From Mucilaginibacter gilvus (GTDB lineage Bacteria; Bacteroidota; Bacteroidia; Sphingobacteriales; Sphingobacteriaceae), in contig NZ_SBIW01000007.1 of NCBI RefSeq assembly GCF_004054195.1, positions 372,001 to 436,000 of the forward strand: DNA of 64,000 nucleotides. Reading direction: 5' to 3'. Below are positions 10,138 through 22,998 of this stretch, piece by piece. The notes under the pieces are model-generated. The model saw only the letters and a list, made by a program, of their open reading frames with translations, was not told where the DNA came from and did not search any database. Position 1 is the first letter of the stretch, and the number at the start of each line of letters is the position of its first letter. The position numbers were made by a program, and so were the translations under genes.

Positions 10138-10929
10138 TTATTTGCTTAAACGTGTACCAAATCCCTTTTTATTTTCCAATTGCCCAAGGTCGTTCGAATG
10201 GCCGATAATAACCGCTTTAACGCCACATGAGATGGCTGTAAAAGCGTTATCAAGCTTTGGCAGCATGCCACTGTGGATCACCTTTTCCATTTTTAATTTC
10301 TCGTAACGTTCCGGGTCTATCTCTCTTATCAGCGAATCTTCATCATTAATATCCATTAGCACCCCTTTCTTTTCAAAGCAATAGATTAGTGTAGTTTCAT
10401 ACCTGCCAGATAGCGCTACCGCCAGTGCCGAAGCAATGGTATCGGCATTGGTGTTGAGCATTTGGCCTTCACCATCGTGCGTTAAGGCGCAAAAAACGGG
10501 TGTGAAACCACCATCAAGCAGTTTACTGAGATTTTCCGGGTTGATGGAGCCTTCGAAAAGATCACCCACAAAACCATAGTCTATCGTTTTAACCGGTCGT
10601 TTTTTGGCACGGATAAAATCACCGTCGGCACCGGTAAGCCCGATGGCGTTAGTGCCATAACGTTGCAGTTGAGCTACAATGTTTTTGTTGATGAGCCCAC
10701 CATATACCATGGTCACGATGCGTAGCGTGTCGATGTCGGTAATGCGGCGGCCATCAACCATCTGCGCTTCAATACCCATGCTTTCGCCAATTTGTGTGGC
10801 CACCTTACCGCCGCCGTGTACCAGGATCTTGCAGCCTTTTAGAGCCGTAAAATCCTTCAGGAAACGGTGCAGATTCTCCGAATTATCAATAACGTTGCCG
10901 CCAATTTTTATGATGTGCAGGGCTTGCAT
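10138..10929 (-). CDS. argB: Acetylglutamate kinase family (N-acylglutamate kinase)
   Basis: 263 residues. The amino-acid-kinase fold shows IIKIGGNVID at the N-terminus, VHGGGK near residue 40, GLTGADG and a conserved NTNADTIASALA segment. ArgB phosphorylates N-acetylglutamate. In organisms with succinylated intermediates the equivalent step would act on N-succinylglutamate, and sequence alone does not tell which is used here. It lies upstream of proC with a one-base gap. The rest of the arginine operon (argG to the transcarbamylase) is on the same strand but 6.6 kb away, with a plus-strand block and a PaiB-like gene between. Confidence 0.93.
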   Translation of the reverse strand: MQALHIIKIGGNVIDNSENLHRFLKDFTALKGCKILVHGGGKVATQIGESMGIEAQMVDGRRITDIDTLRIVTMVYGGLINKNIVAQLQRYGTNAIGLTGADGDFIRAKKRPVKTIDYGFVGDLFEGSINPENLSKLLDGGFTPVFCALTHDGEGQMLNTNADTIASALAVALSGRYETTLIYCFEKKGVLMDINDEDSLIREIDPERYEKLKMEKVIHSGMLPKLDNAFTAISCGVKAVIIGHSNDLGQLENKKGFGTRLSK

Positions 10930-17517: not shown

Positions 17518-18465
17518 TTACAGCGCTTCCAGCATCTGTTTCAGCACTGCCTGGGCAGCCCAAACACGGTTACCTGCTTCGTGGATCACTACGGATCTAT
17601 CACTGTCTAATATTTCGGATGATAGTTCCAGGTCGCGGCGTACAGGCAGGCAATGCATTACTTTTGCGGTTGGCGCTTCTTTCAGTTTATCCAGTGTGAG
17701 CATCCAATCTTCATTACCCGGCAGAATTTTGCCATAAGGCTCGTAGGCCGACCAATTCTTCACATAAATAAAGTCGGCATCCTTTATCGCTTCATCCTGG
17801 TTATGGGTAATGGTTGCACCATTGGTGAATTCCTTAGAAAGCTCATATCCAGCCGGCTGAGCGATCACGAAATCTACATCGCCCTTGCACATCCATTCGG
17901 CAAAAGAATTGGGTACAGCCTGCGGCAGGGGCTTTATATGTGGTGCCCAGGTTAACACTACCTTGGGGCGGTCGTTAGTTTTAAGTTCTTCAATAGTTAC
18001 CAAATCAGCAAGGCTTTGCAAAGGGTGGCGCGTAGCCGATTCCAGGCTCACTACCGGTACTTTACAAAACTCCACAAACTTGTTGAAGATCATCTCGCTA
18101 TAATCTTCCTCGCGGTTTTTTAAACCTGGGAAAGAGCGTACGCCAATAATATCCGAATATTCGCCCATTACGCCGGCTGCTTCGCGGATATGCTCTACAG
18201 TGGTGCCGTTCATAATCACTCCATCCTGCAATTCCAGCGCCCAGCCTTCCTTATCAATGTTAAGCACAATAACATTCATACCCAAATTCTGACCGGCCTT
18301 TTGGGTGCTGATACGGGTACGCAGGCTTGGGTTTAAAAAAACGAGGCACAGGGTTTTATTCTCGCCGAGGTGCTTATGGGCAAAAGGGTTTTGTTTCAGC
18401 TGCAATGCTTCGGCAACCAGTTGTTGCACATCGCTAACGTCATTAACAGAAGTAAATAATTTCAT
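17518..18465 (-). CDS. argF': N-acylornithine carbamoyltransferase, probably N-succinylornithine type
   Basis: 315 residues. The carbamoyl-phosphate site reads SLRTR (residues 47-51) in place of STRTR of ordinary ornithine transcarbamylase; this and the long EGWALELQDGVIMNG segment mark the acylornithine subfamily known from Bacteroides fragilis and Xanthomonas. HPLQSLAD and MHCLPVRRD are also present. At the position corresponding to Glu92 of the Xanthomonas acetyl enzyme and Pro90 of the B. fragilis succinyl enzyme this protein has Val90 (TTVEHI), and valine there is known to favour succinylornithine. It follows argD in the operon by 68 bases. Subfamily confident; the succinyl preference is inferred from one hand-aligned residue. 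Confidence 0.88.
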   Translation of the reverse strand: MKLFTSVNDVSDVQQLVAEALQLKQNPFAHKHLGENKTLCLVFLNPSLRTRISTQKAGQNLGMNVIVLNIDKEGWALELQDGVIMNGTTVEHIREAAGVMGEYSDIIGVRSFPGLKNREEDYSEMIFNKFVEFCKVPVVSLESATRHPLQSLADLVTIEELKTNDRPKVVLTWAPHIKPLPQAVPNSFAEWMCKGDVDFVIAQPAGYELSKEFTNGATITHNQDEAIKDADFIYVKNWSAYEPYGKILPGNEDWMLTLDKLKEAPTAKVMHCLPVRRDLELSSEILDSDRSVVIHEAGNRVWAAQAVLKQMLEAL

Positions 18466-18533: not shown

Positions 18534-19664
18534 TTATGAATTTTTCAATGTTGTTGCAAACGCTTCCAGGAACCTGTCGGCATAAGCTTTTGTTAAATTA
18601 AGTGCAGGTAAAAGCCTCACAACGTTTTGTTTAGCTTCTCCTGTAAATATCTGGTGCTTAAACAGCAGCTCTTTTTTTACGTTCGATAGTTCGGCAGGCA
18701 GGTCGATGCCTATCATCAAACCGCGTCCTCTAACTTCCTTTACTTTGTCGAACTTCTTTAATTCTTCGATGAGGTAGCCGCCTATTTCGGCAGCGTTTTG
18801 CATCAGGTTATCCTGTTCAATGGTTTCCAAAACAGCTAATGCAGCTGCACAAGCCAAATGATTACCACCAAAGGTAGTGCCGAGTTCGCCGTACCATGGT
18901 TTTATTTTTGGCGATATAATGATACCCCCAACCGGGAAGCCATTTCCCATGCCTTTTGCCATTGAATAGATATCGGCATCAATACCCGCAAGATCATGCG
19001 AGAAAAATTTACCTGTCCGTCCGTATCCACATTGTACGCTATCGGCAACAAATACCGCGTTATGCTCATCGCAAAGTGTACGTATCTTTTGAAGGAATGG
19101 CAGTGGTGCAACCTGTATGCCGCCAACGCCCTGTATACCTTCGATGATCACGGAGGAAATTTGGTTATTTAAAAACGCTTGCTCCAACGCTGCTTCATCT
19201 GCCCATGGCAGAAATATAACGTTATCGGTTTCATTTATAGGGGCAACTATTTTTGGGTTATCAGTAACGGCAACAGCCAATGAGGTACGACCATGGAAAG
19301 CATTTTTGAAGGCGATAACCTTCTTTTTGCCATTGTAAAACGAAGCCAGTTTTAGGGCGTTCTCATTTGCTTCCGCACCCGAATTGCAAAGGAACAGCTG
19401 GTAATCTTCTTTGCCGGCTACTTTACCCAGCTTTTCTGCCAGTTGTTTTTGTAAAGGGATCTCTATAGAGTTGGAATAAAAGCCAATCTGGTGCAGCTGA
19501 TCTTCCAAACGCTTTACGTAATGAGGATGGGTGTGCCCGATGGAAATAACAGCATGGCCGCCGTAAAGGTCCAGGTATTCGGTGCCTTTGTCGTCATAAA
19601 CAAGGCTACCCAGGCCTTTAACAATATTGATTGGGTTGATAGGATATACGTCGAATAAATTCAT
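18534..19664 (-). CDS. argD: Acetylornithine (acylornithine) aminotransferase
   Basis: 376 residues. A class III PLP aminotransferase with LYGGHAVISIGHTHP near the start, NSGAEANENALKLA (about 102-115), the DSVQCGYGRTG cofactor pocket and the PLP lysine in SMAKGMGNGFP. It swaps the amino group between glutamate and N-acylglutamate semialdehyde to form N-acylornithine. It lies between argC and the transcarbamylase, 63 bases after argC. ArgD-type enzymes often also accept succinylated substrates, which fits the proposed succinyl pathway. Confidence 0.93.
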   Translation of the reverse strand: MNLFDVYPINPINIVKGLGSLVYDDKGTEYLDLYGGHAVISIGHTHPHYVKRLEDQLHQIGFYSNSIEIPLQKQLAEKLGKVAGKEDYQLFLCNSGAEANENALKLASFYNGKKKVIAFKNAFHGRTSLAVAVTDNPKIVAPINETDNVIFLPWADEAALEQAFLNNQISSVIIEGIQGVGGIQVAPLPFLQKIRTLCDEHNAVFVADSVQCGYGRTGKFFSHDLAGIDADIYSMAKGMGNGFPVGGIIISPKIKPWYGELGTTFGGNHLACAAALAVLETIEQDNLMQNAAEIGGYLIEELKKFDKVKEVRGRGLMIGIDLPAELSNVKKELLFKHQIFTGEAKQNVVRLLPALNLTKAYADRFLEAFATTLKNS

Positions 19665-19727: not shown

Positions 19728-20723
19728 TTAAAAACCGATCGCCTTAAGTCGTAATCCTGCGCGCTCATCCAAACCAAACATCAGGTTCATGTTTTGAACC
19801 GCCTGCCCGGAAGCGCCTTTAAGTAAATTATCCATAATGCTGATAAGGAATATTTTATTATCGTGTTTCTTAACCTGAACAAAGCACTTGTTGGTATTGA
19901 TGATCTGTTTCAGGTCGATATCCTTATTGGTAACATGCGTAAATGCATGCCCGGCGTAATACTCCTTATAAAGCTGTAAAGCCTCCGCTTCGGACAGATC
20001 GCTTTCAGTGTATATAGAAGCGATGATCCCCCTTGTAAAGTCGCCACGGTACGGAACAAAGTTTACGGCTTCAGCAAAGCCCGGTTGTAATTGCTTAAGT
20101 GACTGGCCGATCTCGTTTAAATGCTGATGGCTAAATGATTTGTAAACAGAAAGGTTATCGTTTCTCCAGGTGAAGTGTGTGGTAGGAGACAAGCTTTGCC
20201 CCGCACCGGTTGAACCGGTTGTAGCAGTGACGTGTACCTCATGCGTAAGCAGGCCTTTTGATGCAAGCGGCAACAGGCCCAATTGCAAACAGGTAGCAAA
20301 ACAACCCGGGTTGGCAATGTTATCTGCCGACTTGATGGCCTCGCGATTCAGTTCCGGCAAACCGTATACAAAGTTCTTATTTTTTAATTTTGAATTTTGA
20401 CTTAACCTGAAATCCTGGCTCAGGTCAATTACCTTAATATTATTAGGGATCTCGTTAGCCTCTAAAAACTTTTTAGCATCGCCGTGCCCAACGCACAGGA
20501 ACAATACATCAATAGCGTTAGAAAGCTCTGAAGCAAACTGCAGGTCGGTATCGCCAAACAGGTCCGTGTGTACATCGTAAACATGCTTGCCGGCACTGCT
20601 GGTGCTGTGCACAAATACAATATCCACATGGGGATGGTTGATGAGGATCCGCAGCATTTCGCCGCCGGTATAGCCCGCACCGCCAACAATGCCTGCGCGA
20701 ATTTTAGAGGTTGATTCTGTCAT
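19728..20723 (-). CDS. argC: N-acetyl-gamma-glutamyl-phosphate reductase
   Basis: 331 residues. GGAGYTGGEMLRIL near residue 14 binds NADP; the catalytic cysteine lies in NPGCFATCLQLGLLPL (about 137-152) and PTTHFTWRND follows. It reduces N-acylglutamyl phosphate to the semialdehyde, the step between ArgB and ArgD. Its first 20 bases overlap the end of the cupin gene upstream, so translation is likely coupled. Full-length and intact. Confidence 0.94.
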   Translation of the reverse strand: MTESTSKIRAGIVGGAGYTGGEMLRILINHPHVDIVFVHSTSSAGKHVYDVHTDLFGDTDLQFASELSNAIDVLFLCVGHGDAKKFLEANEIPNNIKVIDLSQDFRLSQNSKLKNKNFVYGLPELNREAIKSADNIANPGCFATCLQLGLLPLASKGLLTHEVHVTATTGSTGAGQSLSPTTHFTWRNDNLSVYKSFSHQHLNEIGQSLKQLQPGFAEAVNFVPYRGDFTRGIIASIYTESDLSEAEALQLYKEYYAGHAFTHVTNKDIDLKQIINTNKCFVQVKKHDNKIFLISIMDNLLKGASGQAVQNMNLMFGLDERAGLRLKAIGF

Positions 20724-21054
20724 TTTTTGTAGATGGTGTAGAGTACAAAATAAATTCCAGGTCGCTGCTTTCTTTGTTGGCTATAAAGTGCTTCTGACCG
20801 GGTTTAATTTCGATGCCCTGTTCGGGTTTTAAAATGCTGATTTCGCCATCGATAGAGAATGTTGCCCGCCCTTTCAGTATAAAAAAGAACTGCGATGCCG
20901 TTTCGTGAAAATGCAATTGCTCGGCTGTATCCGGCGGCATCAGTTCCTGTTTAATGGATAATGCCTCGGCATCAACATAATTCCAGCCGTAGCAATCATC
21001 GCCCCAGCGGTAATGACTTAAACATTCGCTCCGCGAGAAAACCGGGTTACTCAT
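20704..21054 (-). CDS. Small cupin-domain protein inside the arginine operon
   Basis: 116 residues, one cupin barrel: the first motif is HFHETASQFFFILKG (about residues 48-62) and the second is GIEIKPGQKHFIAN. Metal-binding histidines are therefore present. It overlaps argG by eight bases at its start and argC by 20 bases at its end, the tightest packing in the operon, which suggests a real partnership with arginine synthesis. Cupins include isomerases, oxygenases and ligand sensors; nothing visible chooses between them. Function unknown. Confidence 0.85.
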   Translation of the reverse strand: MSNPVFSRSECLSHYRWGDDCYGWNYVDAEALSIKQELMPPDTAEQLHFHETASQFFFILKGRATFSIDGEISILKPEQGIEIKPGQKHFIANKESSDLEFILYSTPSTKNDRINL

Positions 21055-22246
21055 TGATGCCGTTCACTTTATGGTAGATCATTACCTGGTTACCAAAGAT
21101 CTTAGAGAAGCCCTTAACGTCTTCGCCGCTCCAGGCGTTGTTCATTTCGCCGTAGCTGCCAAACTTGTTCGACATCAGGTCGTGATCCGATTCGATACCC
21201 ACCACCTGGAAACGGTAAGGGTTCAGTTGTACAAATACTTTGCCGCTAATGTTCTTCTGCGTATCAGTAAGGAAGGCCTCCATATTGCGCATAATAGGGT
21301 CGTGGAACTGCCCTTCGTGCAGCCAGTTGCCGTAGAACATCGATAGCTGGTCTTTCCACGAAAGCTGCCATTTTGTTAGCGCGTGTTTTTCCAGCGTGTG
21401 GTGCGCTTTGATGATCACCATTGGTGCCGCAGCCTCAAAACCTACGCGGCCCTTAATACCGATGATGGTATCGCCCACGTGGATGTCCCTGCCAACACCG
21501 TAAGGCTGGGCAATAGCCTGCAATGCCTGTATGGCTTTAGTAGGATGATCGTATTTATCATCATCGATACCAACCAATTCGCCTTTTTCAAAAGTAAGGG
21601 TGACATCACGGGTGCCGGTCTCAGTAACCTGTGTTGGCCATGCTTCCTCAGGCAAGCCCAAATTAGACGTTAAAGTTTCTTTACCACCTACGGATGTTCC
21701 CCAGATACCTTTGTTGATTGAGTACTTCGCTTTTTCGAAGTTCATCTCCACGCCTTGTTTCTTGAGGTATTCAATTTCCGCTTCGCGACTTAGTTTAAGG
21801 TCGCGGATAGGGGTGATGATTTTTACTTCAGGCACCAATATATTGAATATCATATCAAAACGCACCTGGTCGTTACCGGCACCTGTGCTGCCATGGGCAA
21901 CGTACTCGGCACCAATTTCTTTGGCATAGTTTGCAATAGCTGTCGCCTGGCTTACACGCTCGGCACTAACCGACAGTGGGTAGGTGTTGTTTTTCAATAC
22001 ATTACCGTATATCAAAAAGCGCACGCAGGTGTTGTAGAAGTTCTCGGTCTCATCAACCACATGGTGGCTGGTAACACCCATTTGGTAAGCACGTTCTTCA
22101 ACGCCTTTGAGTTCTTCATCGCTAAAACCACCGGTGTTTACAATTACAGAGTGTACTTCGTAACCCTGGTCGCGGGTTAAATAAATGCAGCAAAATGAGG
22201 TGTCTAACCCACCGCTGTATGCTAAAACTACTTTTTTCTTTGCCAT
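21047..22246 (-). CDS. argG: Argininosuccinate synthase
   Basis: 399 residues from the ATG at 22246 (MAKKKVVLAYSGGLDTS). I chose this over an upstream start that would add 14 residues lying partly in a repeat. The ATP pyrophosphatase loop AYSGGLDTS and the conserved AHGSTGAGNDQVRF segment are present. It joins citrulline and aspartate to give argininosuccinate. This requires free citrulline, so a deacylase acting on N-acylcitrulline must exist elsewhere; neither it nor argH is in the window. It starts 92 bases after the GNAT gene, the gap holding a hairpin repeat. Confidence 0.94.
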   Translation of the reverse strand: MAKKKVVLAYSGGLDTSFCCIYLTRDQGYEVHSVIVNTGGFSDEELKGVEERAYQMGVTSHHVVDETENFYNTCVRFLIYGNVLKNNTYPLSVSAERVSQATAIANYAKEIGAEYVAHGSTGAGNDQVRFDMIFNILVPEVKIITPIRDLKLSREAEIEYLKKQGVEMNFEKAKYSINKGIWGTSVGGKETLTSNLGLPEEAWPTQVTETGTRDVTLTFEKGELVGIDDDKYDHPTKAIQALQAIAQPYGVGRDIHVGDTIIGIKGRVGFEAAAPMVIIKAHHTLEKHALTKWQLSWKDQLSMFYGNWLHEGQFHDPIMRNMEAFLTDTQKNISGKVFVQLNPYRFQVVGIESDHDLMSNKFGSYGEMNNAWSGEDVKGFSKIFGNQVMIYHKVNGINE

Positions 22247-22257
22247 TTTTTCTATTT

Positions 22258-22331
22258 GTAGAGCCGCGATACTTCGCGGCTTTAACAATTTGTATTAATA
22301 TCTAATAAAACGCGAAGTATCGCGTCTCTAC
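22258..22331. repeat. Hairpin repeat between the GNAT gene and argG
   Basis: GTAGAGCCGCGATACTTCGCG (22258-22278) and its inverted copy at 22311-22331 match at 20 of 21 bases around a 32-base A+T-rich centre. A half copy ends at 40513. Lying inside the arginine operon, it would form a strong stem in the mRNA just before argG and could trim or partly terminate the transcript. Confidence 0.75.
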
Positions 22332-22338
22332 AGTTTTC

Positions 22339-22998
22339 TTAATTGAATTCGAACGCCATTACGTGCTCAAGCCGTTTTTTAATTGCGGCTTCTATACGTT
22401 CCAGCAAAGTCGCCTTGTGCGTAATTTTTTGCATCTTTTCCTCGTACTGTTTTTGTACCTCGGCAGGGTCGAACAGCATGGCGGTACACATGCAGTTTTT
22501 ACGCCCTTTGGCCGTAAGGATGTCGAAGTTTACACAGCTGGTACAGCCTTTCCAAAAGTTCTCGTCCTGTGTCAGTTCAGAGTAAGTTACCGGCTCGTAA
22601 CCCAGCTCTGAGTTTATCTTCATAACGGCAAGCCCGGTAGTTAATCCGAAGATCTTGGCTTCGGGGTATTTTTGGCGCGAAAGGCCGAATATCTTTTGTT
22701 TAATAGCCTTAGCCAAACCTGCCTTGCGGTAGATAGGGTTTACAATAAGGCCAGAATTGGCCACGAAATCGCCGTGGCTCCAGGTTTCTATGTAGCAGAA
22801 ACCTGCCCAGGTGCCGTCTTTATGCAAAGCGATAACAGCTTTGCCTTCCAGCATTTTATTTGCGACATACTCTGGCGAGCGCTGCGCGATACCTGTACCG
22901 CGTGCCTTTGCCGATTCTGCCATTTCATCGCAAATCATCGGTGCAAAGTCGGCGTGTTGTGCCGTGGCTACCTGTATGTCAAAATCTTGTATGGTCAT
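22339..22998 (-). CDS. GNAT acetyltransferase with four-cysteine tail; candidate N-acylglutamate synthase
   Basis: 219 residues, first gene of the arginine operon. A GNAT fold is visible: GFCYIETWSHGDFVANSGLI in two strands, then the acyl-CoA loop NPIYRKAGLAKAI (about residues 87-99). Uniquely, it has CTSC (Cys152, Cys155) followed by CMC (Cys169, Cys171), likely a zinc or iron-sulfur site, and a C-terminal helical tail. No classical argA or argJ is present, and this gene occupies the position expected for the enzyme that acylates glutamate. The acyl donor could be acetyl-CoA or, given the Val90 transcarbamylase, succinyl-CoA. GNAT assignment is firm; the role is inference from position. Confidence 0.75.
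   Translation of the reverse strand: MTIQDFDIQVATAQHADFAPMICDEMAESAKARGTGIAQRSPEYVANKMLEGKAVIALHKDGTWAGFCYIETWSHGDFVANSGLIVNPIYRKAGLAKAIKQKIFGLSRQKYPEAKIFGLTTGLAVMKINSELGYEPVTYSELTQDENFWKGCTSCVNFDILTAKGRKNCMCTAMLFDPAEVQKQYEEKMQKITHKATLLERIEAAIKKRLEHVMAFEFN

Follow-up and report, generated by a model that had tools for sequence, protein, structure and literature searches.

A putative N-acylglutamate synthase of the GNAT fold with four invariant cysteines, encoded at the head of an arginine operon of Mucilaginibacter gilvus

Arginine genes in the window and in the genome

The window analyzed here is a stretch of 64,000 nucleotides from Mucilaginibacter gilvus. Within it, six genes form an operon on the minus strand, in the order GNAT, argG, a small cupin gene, argC, an argD-type gene and argF' (Table 1). 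As described in an earlier note on this DNA, the operon is headed by an open reading frame for a GNAT protein with clustered cysteines at positions 152, 155, 169 and 171, and argG is the next gene on the same strand. Two further cysteines, C23 and C68, are present in the protein. The argH gene of this genome was located on another contig. The cupin gene overlaps both argG and argC. A Saprospiraceae MAG (L189) likewise has such a gene between argG and argC, and in another locus (L016) one lies 3' of argG.

Table 1. Arginine genes and associated features in the window (position 1 is the first nucleotide of the stretch)
Feature	Position	Strand	Basis
GNAT-fold protein, 219 aa, putative N-acyl(succinyl)glutamate synthase, ArgA2/BT3761 family	22339..22998	-	ORF, fold, context, literature
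Cysteine site C-x2-C-x13-C-x-C, codons 152 to 171 of the GNAT gene	22486..22545	-	sequence; invariant in relatives
Inverted repeat between GNAT and argG	22258..22331	.	probably a repeat dispersed over the genome, not characteristic of the family
argG, argininosuccinate synthase (ATG at 22246, ends at 21047)	21047..22246	-	TIGR00032, 274.4 bits (cut-off 268.2)
Small cupin protein	20704..21054	-	PF07883, over cut-off
argC, N-acyl-gamma-glutamyl-phosphate reductase	19728..20723	-	TIGR01850, over cut-off
argD-type acylornithine aminotransferase	18534..19664	-	best NCBIfam match TIGR00707, 349 bits, below cut-off (410)
argF', acylornithine transcarbamylase, SOTCase type, V90	17518..18465	-	167/316 residues identical to B. 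fragilis SOTCase 1js1; PRK04523, 268 bits, cut-off (288) not reached
argB, N-acylglutamate kinase	10138..10929	-	TIGR00761, over cut-off; adjoins proC, separate cluster

For the inverted repeat between GNAT and argG, RNA folding gave -37.3 kcal/mol (z -7.6). One arm of this repeat had 30 matches in the genome with at most 2 mismatches, and the reversed control had none. By eye, a similar arm was seen in the GNAT-argG gap of one relative (L017) and none in three others (L015, L016 and L018). The operon has probably received a copy of a dispersed repeat here. In L015, a close relative, the gap is about 417 bases long and apparently contains a small ORF, which may code for a four-helix-bundle protein.

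All 31 contigs of the genome (completeness 100) were searched for the classical enzymes of the first arginine step. The ArgJ family (PF01960) had no match in the 31 contigs, and no protein of the genome exceeded the cut-off of the full-length ArgA model (TIGR01890, comprising kinase and GNAT). Three partial matches to this model corresponded to argB, ArsN2 (over the ArsN2 cut-off) and one more GNAT, and the window GNAT was absent among them. These results bear out the earlier remark that neither argA nor argJ is seen. Also, the genome had 27 matches to Pfam Acetyltransf_1, none of them being the window GNAT.

The window GNAT itself had no Pfam match at E 0.001 and, in NCBIfam, a single weak match that fell well short of the cut-off; a Bacteroides-type relative had a Pfam GNAT match over the cut-off. 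When solved structures were searched by sequence, a weak similarity to PA4794 was detected (E 3e-7), and PA4794 was also the best match in a sequence-profile search, which returned no NAGS up to E 0.1. An AlphaFold2 model, based on an alignment of 62 sequences, had a mean pLDDT of 93.8, and it is this predicted fold, together with the weak similarity to PA4794, that assigns the protein to GNAT. Foldseek matches to the model included N. gonorrhoeae NAGS at rank 2, Rv2747 at rank 5 and 5yge, a structure of ArgA with acetyl-CoA and glutamate, at rank 8. With VIA-align, the same NAGS came first (2r8v, Z 17.0, rmsd 2.9, 153 aligned residues, 21% identity), followed by 5yge (Z 16.2, rmsd 2.5, 145 aligned residues) and Ard1, an ordinary GNAT (Z 15.8), and 5yo2, which is Rv2747, gave Z 15.5; entries less than 1 Z apart are to be read as tied, and the lead of NAGS over other GNATs is narrow. 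The model supports an acyltransferase fold close to that of the glutamate N-acetyltransferases, a likeness that does not by itself prove the substrate.

Two known enzymes are compared here with the window protein. In classical NAGS (ArgA), an amino-acid kinase domain is joined to the GNAT domain, and it is the latter that provides the best structural match. In contrast, the window protein has no kinase domain, and the fusion partner found in three relatives (see below) is ArgG instead of a kinase. Rv2747, the short ArgA of M. tuberculosis, resembles the window protein in consisting of a single GNAT domain, and we take 5yge to be the same protein; however, its identity to the window GNAT is 14-16%, and the profile search missed it up to E 0.1.

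Distribution and gene context in Bacteroidota

We surveyed 296 Bacteroidota genomes, each at least 90% complete; these genomes are related, and their counts do not represent independent trials. Fisher tests on the counts take no account of this relatedness and carry no weight here. GNAT was present in 124 genomes and ArgJ in 121, with both in a single genome (G227) and neither in 52. A third match of 38 residues in G174 was dropped before counting. Transcarbamylases matching the window enzyme with an E value of at most 1e-80 were defined as SOTCase-like. They occurred in 111 genomes, every one of which also had GNAT, and in none of the 172 genomes that lacked it. The remaining 13 GNAT carriers all had a more distant, AOTCase-like transcarbamylase. 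Thus, the GNAT family co-occurs with SOTCase (ArgF3) and takes the place of ArgA/ArgJ, where the statement on ArgA refers to the genome of the window.

With regard to gene context, 107 of the 124 carriers had argG in the fetched stretch and on the strand of GNAT, and the estimated GNAT-argG gap had a median of 9 bases (104 unfused cases). These findings are in line with the earlier suggestion to look for conservation beside argG and presence with argF', as GNAT was seen in all genomes with a SOTCase-like enzyme. Neither absence of the gene from the arginine loci of relatives nor, in the window's genome, an ArgJ or full-length ArgA was observed, although the earlier note named such results as evidence against its idea. 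Similarly, argG lay beside GNAT in 72 of 80 named loci, which were the best 80 of 590 matches and had titles including Balneolaceae, Flavobacteriaceae, Bacteroidales, Kapaibacterium and Calditrichota. B. thetaiotaomicron and C. abyssi were not among these best 80. The named and survey sets overlap in part (e.g. L144/L115 and L192/L125) and are not independent. Two named loci, L148 (Thalassovita) and L153 (Thalassobius), are probably mis-binned; they are among the 19 of the 80 not included in alignment A2, which has 62 rows.

These data bear on the possibility that the window GNAT is an accessory acyltransferase of the operon, whose substrate is for example a protein or some side product, while N-acylglutamate comes from a different GNAT of the genome. 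The 27 other Pfam GNAT matches in the genome and the 17 of 124 carriers without argG beside GNAT are compatible with such a role. However, it would leave unexplained the near-exclusive occurrence of GNAT and ArgJ and the complete co-occurrence of GNAT with SOTCase-like transcarbamylases; moreover, of the two other GNATs that matched the ArgA model, one is ArsN2 by its own cut-off. A fitness defect rescued by arginine, reported for the family member BT3761 (PMC7311316, PMC9026213), also speaks against it. We therefore consider an accessory role very improbable and favor a first-step enzyme of arginine synthesis.

In three carriers (L091, L106 and L125), GNAT and ArgG were found in one open frame of 588, 630 and 601 residues, respectively. 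The alignments to the two proteins were 5 to 11 residues apart, and all three genomes belonged to family f22. This arrangement recalls H-NAGS, in which GNAT is likewise joined to an arginine enzyme (PMC4490483), but there the partner is ArgH, on the N-terminal side, whereas here it is ArgG, on the C-terminal side. No description of a GNAT-ArgG fusion was found in the accessible portions of the open-licence literature.

Among the 17 carriers in which the best GNAT match was not linked to argG, the neighbors of 9 were inspected. In one of these (L056), carA was located 3' of GNAT, and in the other 8 no arginine gene was recognized by eye (for L041, within 1.5 kb on each side).

A separate observation concerned 20 genomes (e.g. 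G003, G008 and G050) with an AOTCase-like transcarbamylase and neither GNAT nor ArgJ. This suggests that these organisms have another acylglutamate synthase or that the step is missing.

Proposed reaction and acyl donor

A function for this family has been proposed before. In 2020, GapMind (PMC7311316) described BT3761 of Bacteroides thetaiotaomicron as "probably N-succinylglutamate synthase", with a role in arginine synthesis derived from mutant fitness, and recognized this pathway in one Echinicola and one Pedobacter as well. BT3761 is critical for growth on minimal medium, a defect that arginine rescues (PMC7311316, PMC9026213). In 2022, the family was named ArgA2 and again proposed to be N-succinylglutamate synthase (PMC9026213); ArgA2 was reported in gut genomes without ArgA, 194 of 228 of which were Bacteroidetes. 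In a review of 2015 (PMC4490483), glutamate succinylation still lacked an identified gene, and the earlier note, which knew of no gene assigned to this activity, is out of date in view of the proposals of 2020 and 2022. In the accessible part of the open-licence literature, no biochemical assay of any family member was found. In one paper, BT3761 is the tag given to the anchor of a tree of 3-ketoglycoside hydrolases, and this was taken as a different or mistaken tag.

The likeness between the window protein and BT3761 was judged by proxy. Two genomes with transcarbamylases 91-92% identical to that of B. fragilis, which are probably Bacteroides-type relatives, had the gene order GNAT-argG-argC-argD, in agreement with the locus tags BT3761, BT3760 (argG) and BT3758 (aminotransferase) given in PMC7311316. 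Their GNATs were 54-56% identical to that of the window over 180-186 residues, and 49 and 52% identical over a longer stretch that runs past their stop codons. BT3761/ArgA2 and the window protein are both single-domain GNATs encoded before argG-argC-argD, in SOTCase-type genomes in which no ArgA or ArgJ was found. The window operon differs in the cupin gene between argG and argC and in that argF' is kept in the cluster.

Operon context, phyletic pattern, fold and the published fitness data for BT3761 all support the candidate acylglutamate synthase suggested by the earlier note, and the operon-leading GNAT is very probably the enzyme that acylates glutamate in the first step of arginine synthesis. 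As we infer it for this organism, GNAT would acylate the alpha-amino group of L-glutamate, most likely with succinyl taken from succinyl-CoA. The acylglutamate would then undergo phosphorylation (ArgB), reduction (ArgC), transamination (the ArgD-type enzyme) and carbamoylation (the SOTCase-type ArgF'), and the acyl group would be removed from acylcitrulline before ArgG and ArgH act. The proposal as a whole, that a single-domain GNAT is the first arginine enzyme of Bacteroidota, that it acylates L-glutamate, most likely with succinyl, and that its cysteines most likely hold a structural metal, is one in which we have high confidence. The co-occurrence with SOTCase and the GNAT-ArgG fusion strengthen the functional proposal of the literature. 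In a broad sample of Bacteroidota, the family fits the first arginine step, and its window member is one that NCBIfam and Pfam models do not name.

Regarding the acyl donor, the window transcarbamylase was compared with SOTCase. SOTCase anchors the succinyl group with H176, R178 and R278 (PMC4581275), and the window argF' has V90, H176, K178 (a conservative change) and R278, in accordance with the SOTCase type, which has a small residue at position 90. The succinyl list for this position in GapMind comprises S, P, A and V (PMC7311316). Among carriers with a transcarbamylase in the fetched stretch (n=33), position 90 was A in 12, T in 8, V in 6, Q in 4, and G, S and a gap in 1 each; the T, Q and G found fall outside the GapMind list (PMC7311316). 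In the 47 named loci for which it was recorded (from the best 80 of 590), it was A in 23, S in 11, V in 6, Q in 3, and T and P in 2 each. The 13 carriers with an AOTCase-like enzyme had A or V.

Position 90 was rejected as proof of succinyl use. In AOTCase-like enzymes of genomes without GNAT (n=21), this residue was A in 18, P in 1 (G199), T in 1 (G223) and Q in 1 (G290); A or P was thus present in 19 of these 21 enzymes, and therefore the residue does not separate carriers from non-carriers or tie GNAT to succinyl. We also looked for GNAT residues that separate AOTCase-like from SOTCase-like genomes, and these were limited to positions 46, 79, 98, 103, 116 and 160, which are confounded by ancestry.

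An alternative for the same step is that acetyl-CoA is the natural donor. The enzyme would then make N-acetylglutamate, and a succinyl pathway, if there is one, would be confined to some Bacteroidota. Cabys_1732 of Caldithrix abyssi belongs to the same family by report, being more than 50% identical to BT3761 (PMC7311316), and, at variance with the succinyl proposal made here, was described in 2017 as a newly characterized N-acetylglutamate synthase on the basis of 'our unpublished results', in a locus argAGCBEH (PMC5317091). Two Calditrichota MAG loci (L164 and L168, among the best 80 of 590) likewise have GNAT before argG-argC, with argB also present in L164, and the 13 carriers with an AOTCase-like enzyme show no clear residue difference in GNAT. 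On the other hand, the window transcarbamylase is of the SOTCase type in the four residues given above, and B. fragilis ArgB is cited by GapMind as an N-succinylglutamate kinase (PMC7311316). We regard acetyl-CoA as a rather unlikely natural donor. If the enzyme is an acylglutamate synthase, the group that it transfers is quite likely to be succinyl.

The four-cysteine site

The role of acylglutamate synthase having been proposed in print in 2020, the cysteine site is the part of the protein that deserves experiment. C152, C155, C169 and C171 are no chance occurrence: they were unchanged in 130 of 130 aligned loci, six diverged second copies among these, and the motif C-x2-C-x13-C-x-C was present in all 80 named loci (the best 80 of 590). 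In the predicted model, C152 and C155 sit where helix 146-154 ends, and C169 and C171 immediately precede strand 172-176. The conservation of the cysteines in linked, unlinked and second-copy members suggests a fixed, probably structural, metal site. From these sequences, the four residues are a candidate metal site, and we infer that the ion is most likely a structural zinc. A single metal ion, probably zinc, would in this case be held by the four invariant cysteines between the helix and the strand. Confirmation that the cysteines bind metal would give the family a defining feature that is open to test.

The same invariance, in all 130 loci with the six second copies and in all 80 named loci, could also be expected of a redox or Fe-S switch linking arginine synthesis to oxygen or iron, instead of a structural zinc. 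Against such a switch, the named carriers include groups that we take to be aerobic and groups that we take to be anaerobic, second copies encoded outside the operon retain the site, as fits a structural role, and no added regulatory domain appears in the predicted model. A redox or Fe-S switch accordingly seems improbable. It is similarly doubtful that the site acts as a functional metal or redox sensor gating the entry of glutamate into arginine synthesis in Bacteroidota and in Kapaibacterium-type and Calditrichota organisms; if it did, this would be the first acylglutamate synthase family known to us in which control lies with a metal site and not with an arginine-binding kinase domain. None of the present results supports the metal-linked control by redox or arginine that the earlier note raised. 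A structural metal remains our preferred reading of the four cysteines.

We found no description of the site in the open-licence literature, as far as its accessible text goes. The main text of PMC7311316 contains neither the word zinc nor the word metal, PMC5317091 does not use the word cysteine, and neither cysteine nor zinc occurs in the NAGS review PMC4490483.

The second copies form a distinct set. In six genomes (L097, L118, L123, L132, L136 and L140), a second, diverged GNAT was present with no argG in the fetched stretch. All six had S38, S80 and F134, whereas other members almost always had A, A and Y at these positions. In L140, which belongs to the same genus as the window, an M20 deacylase gene begins 13 bases past the stop codon of the second copy; its best NCBIfam match was ArgE/DapE, below the cut-off. 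This pair possibly represents a different acyl-amino-acid pathway.
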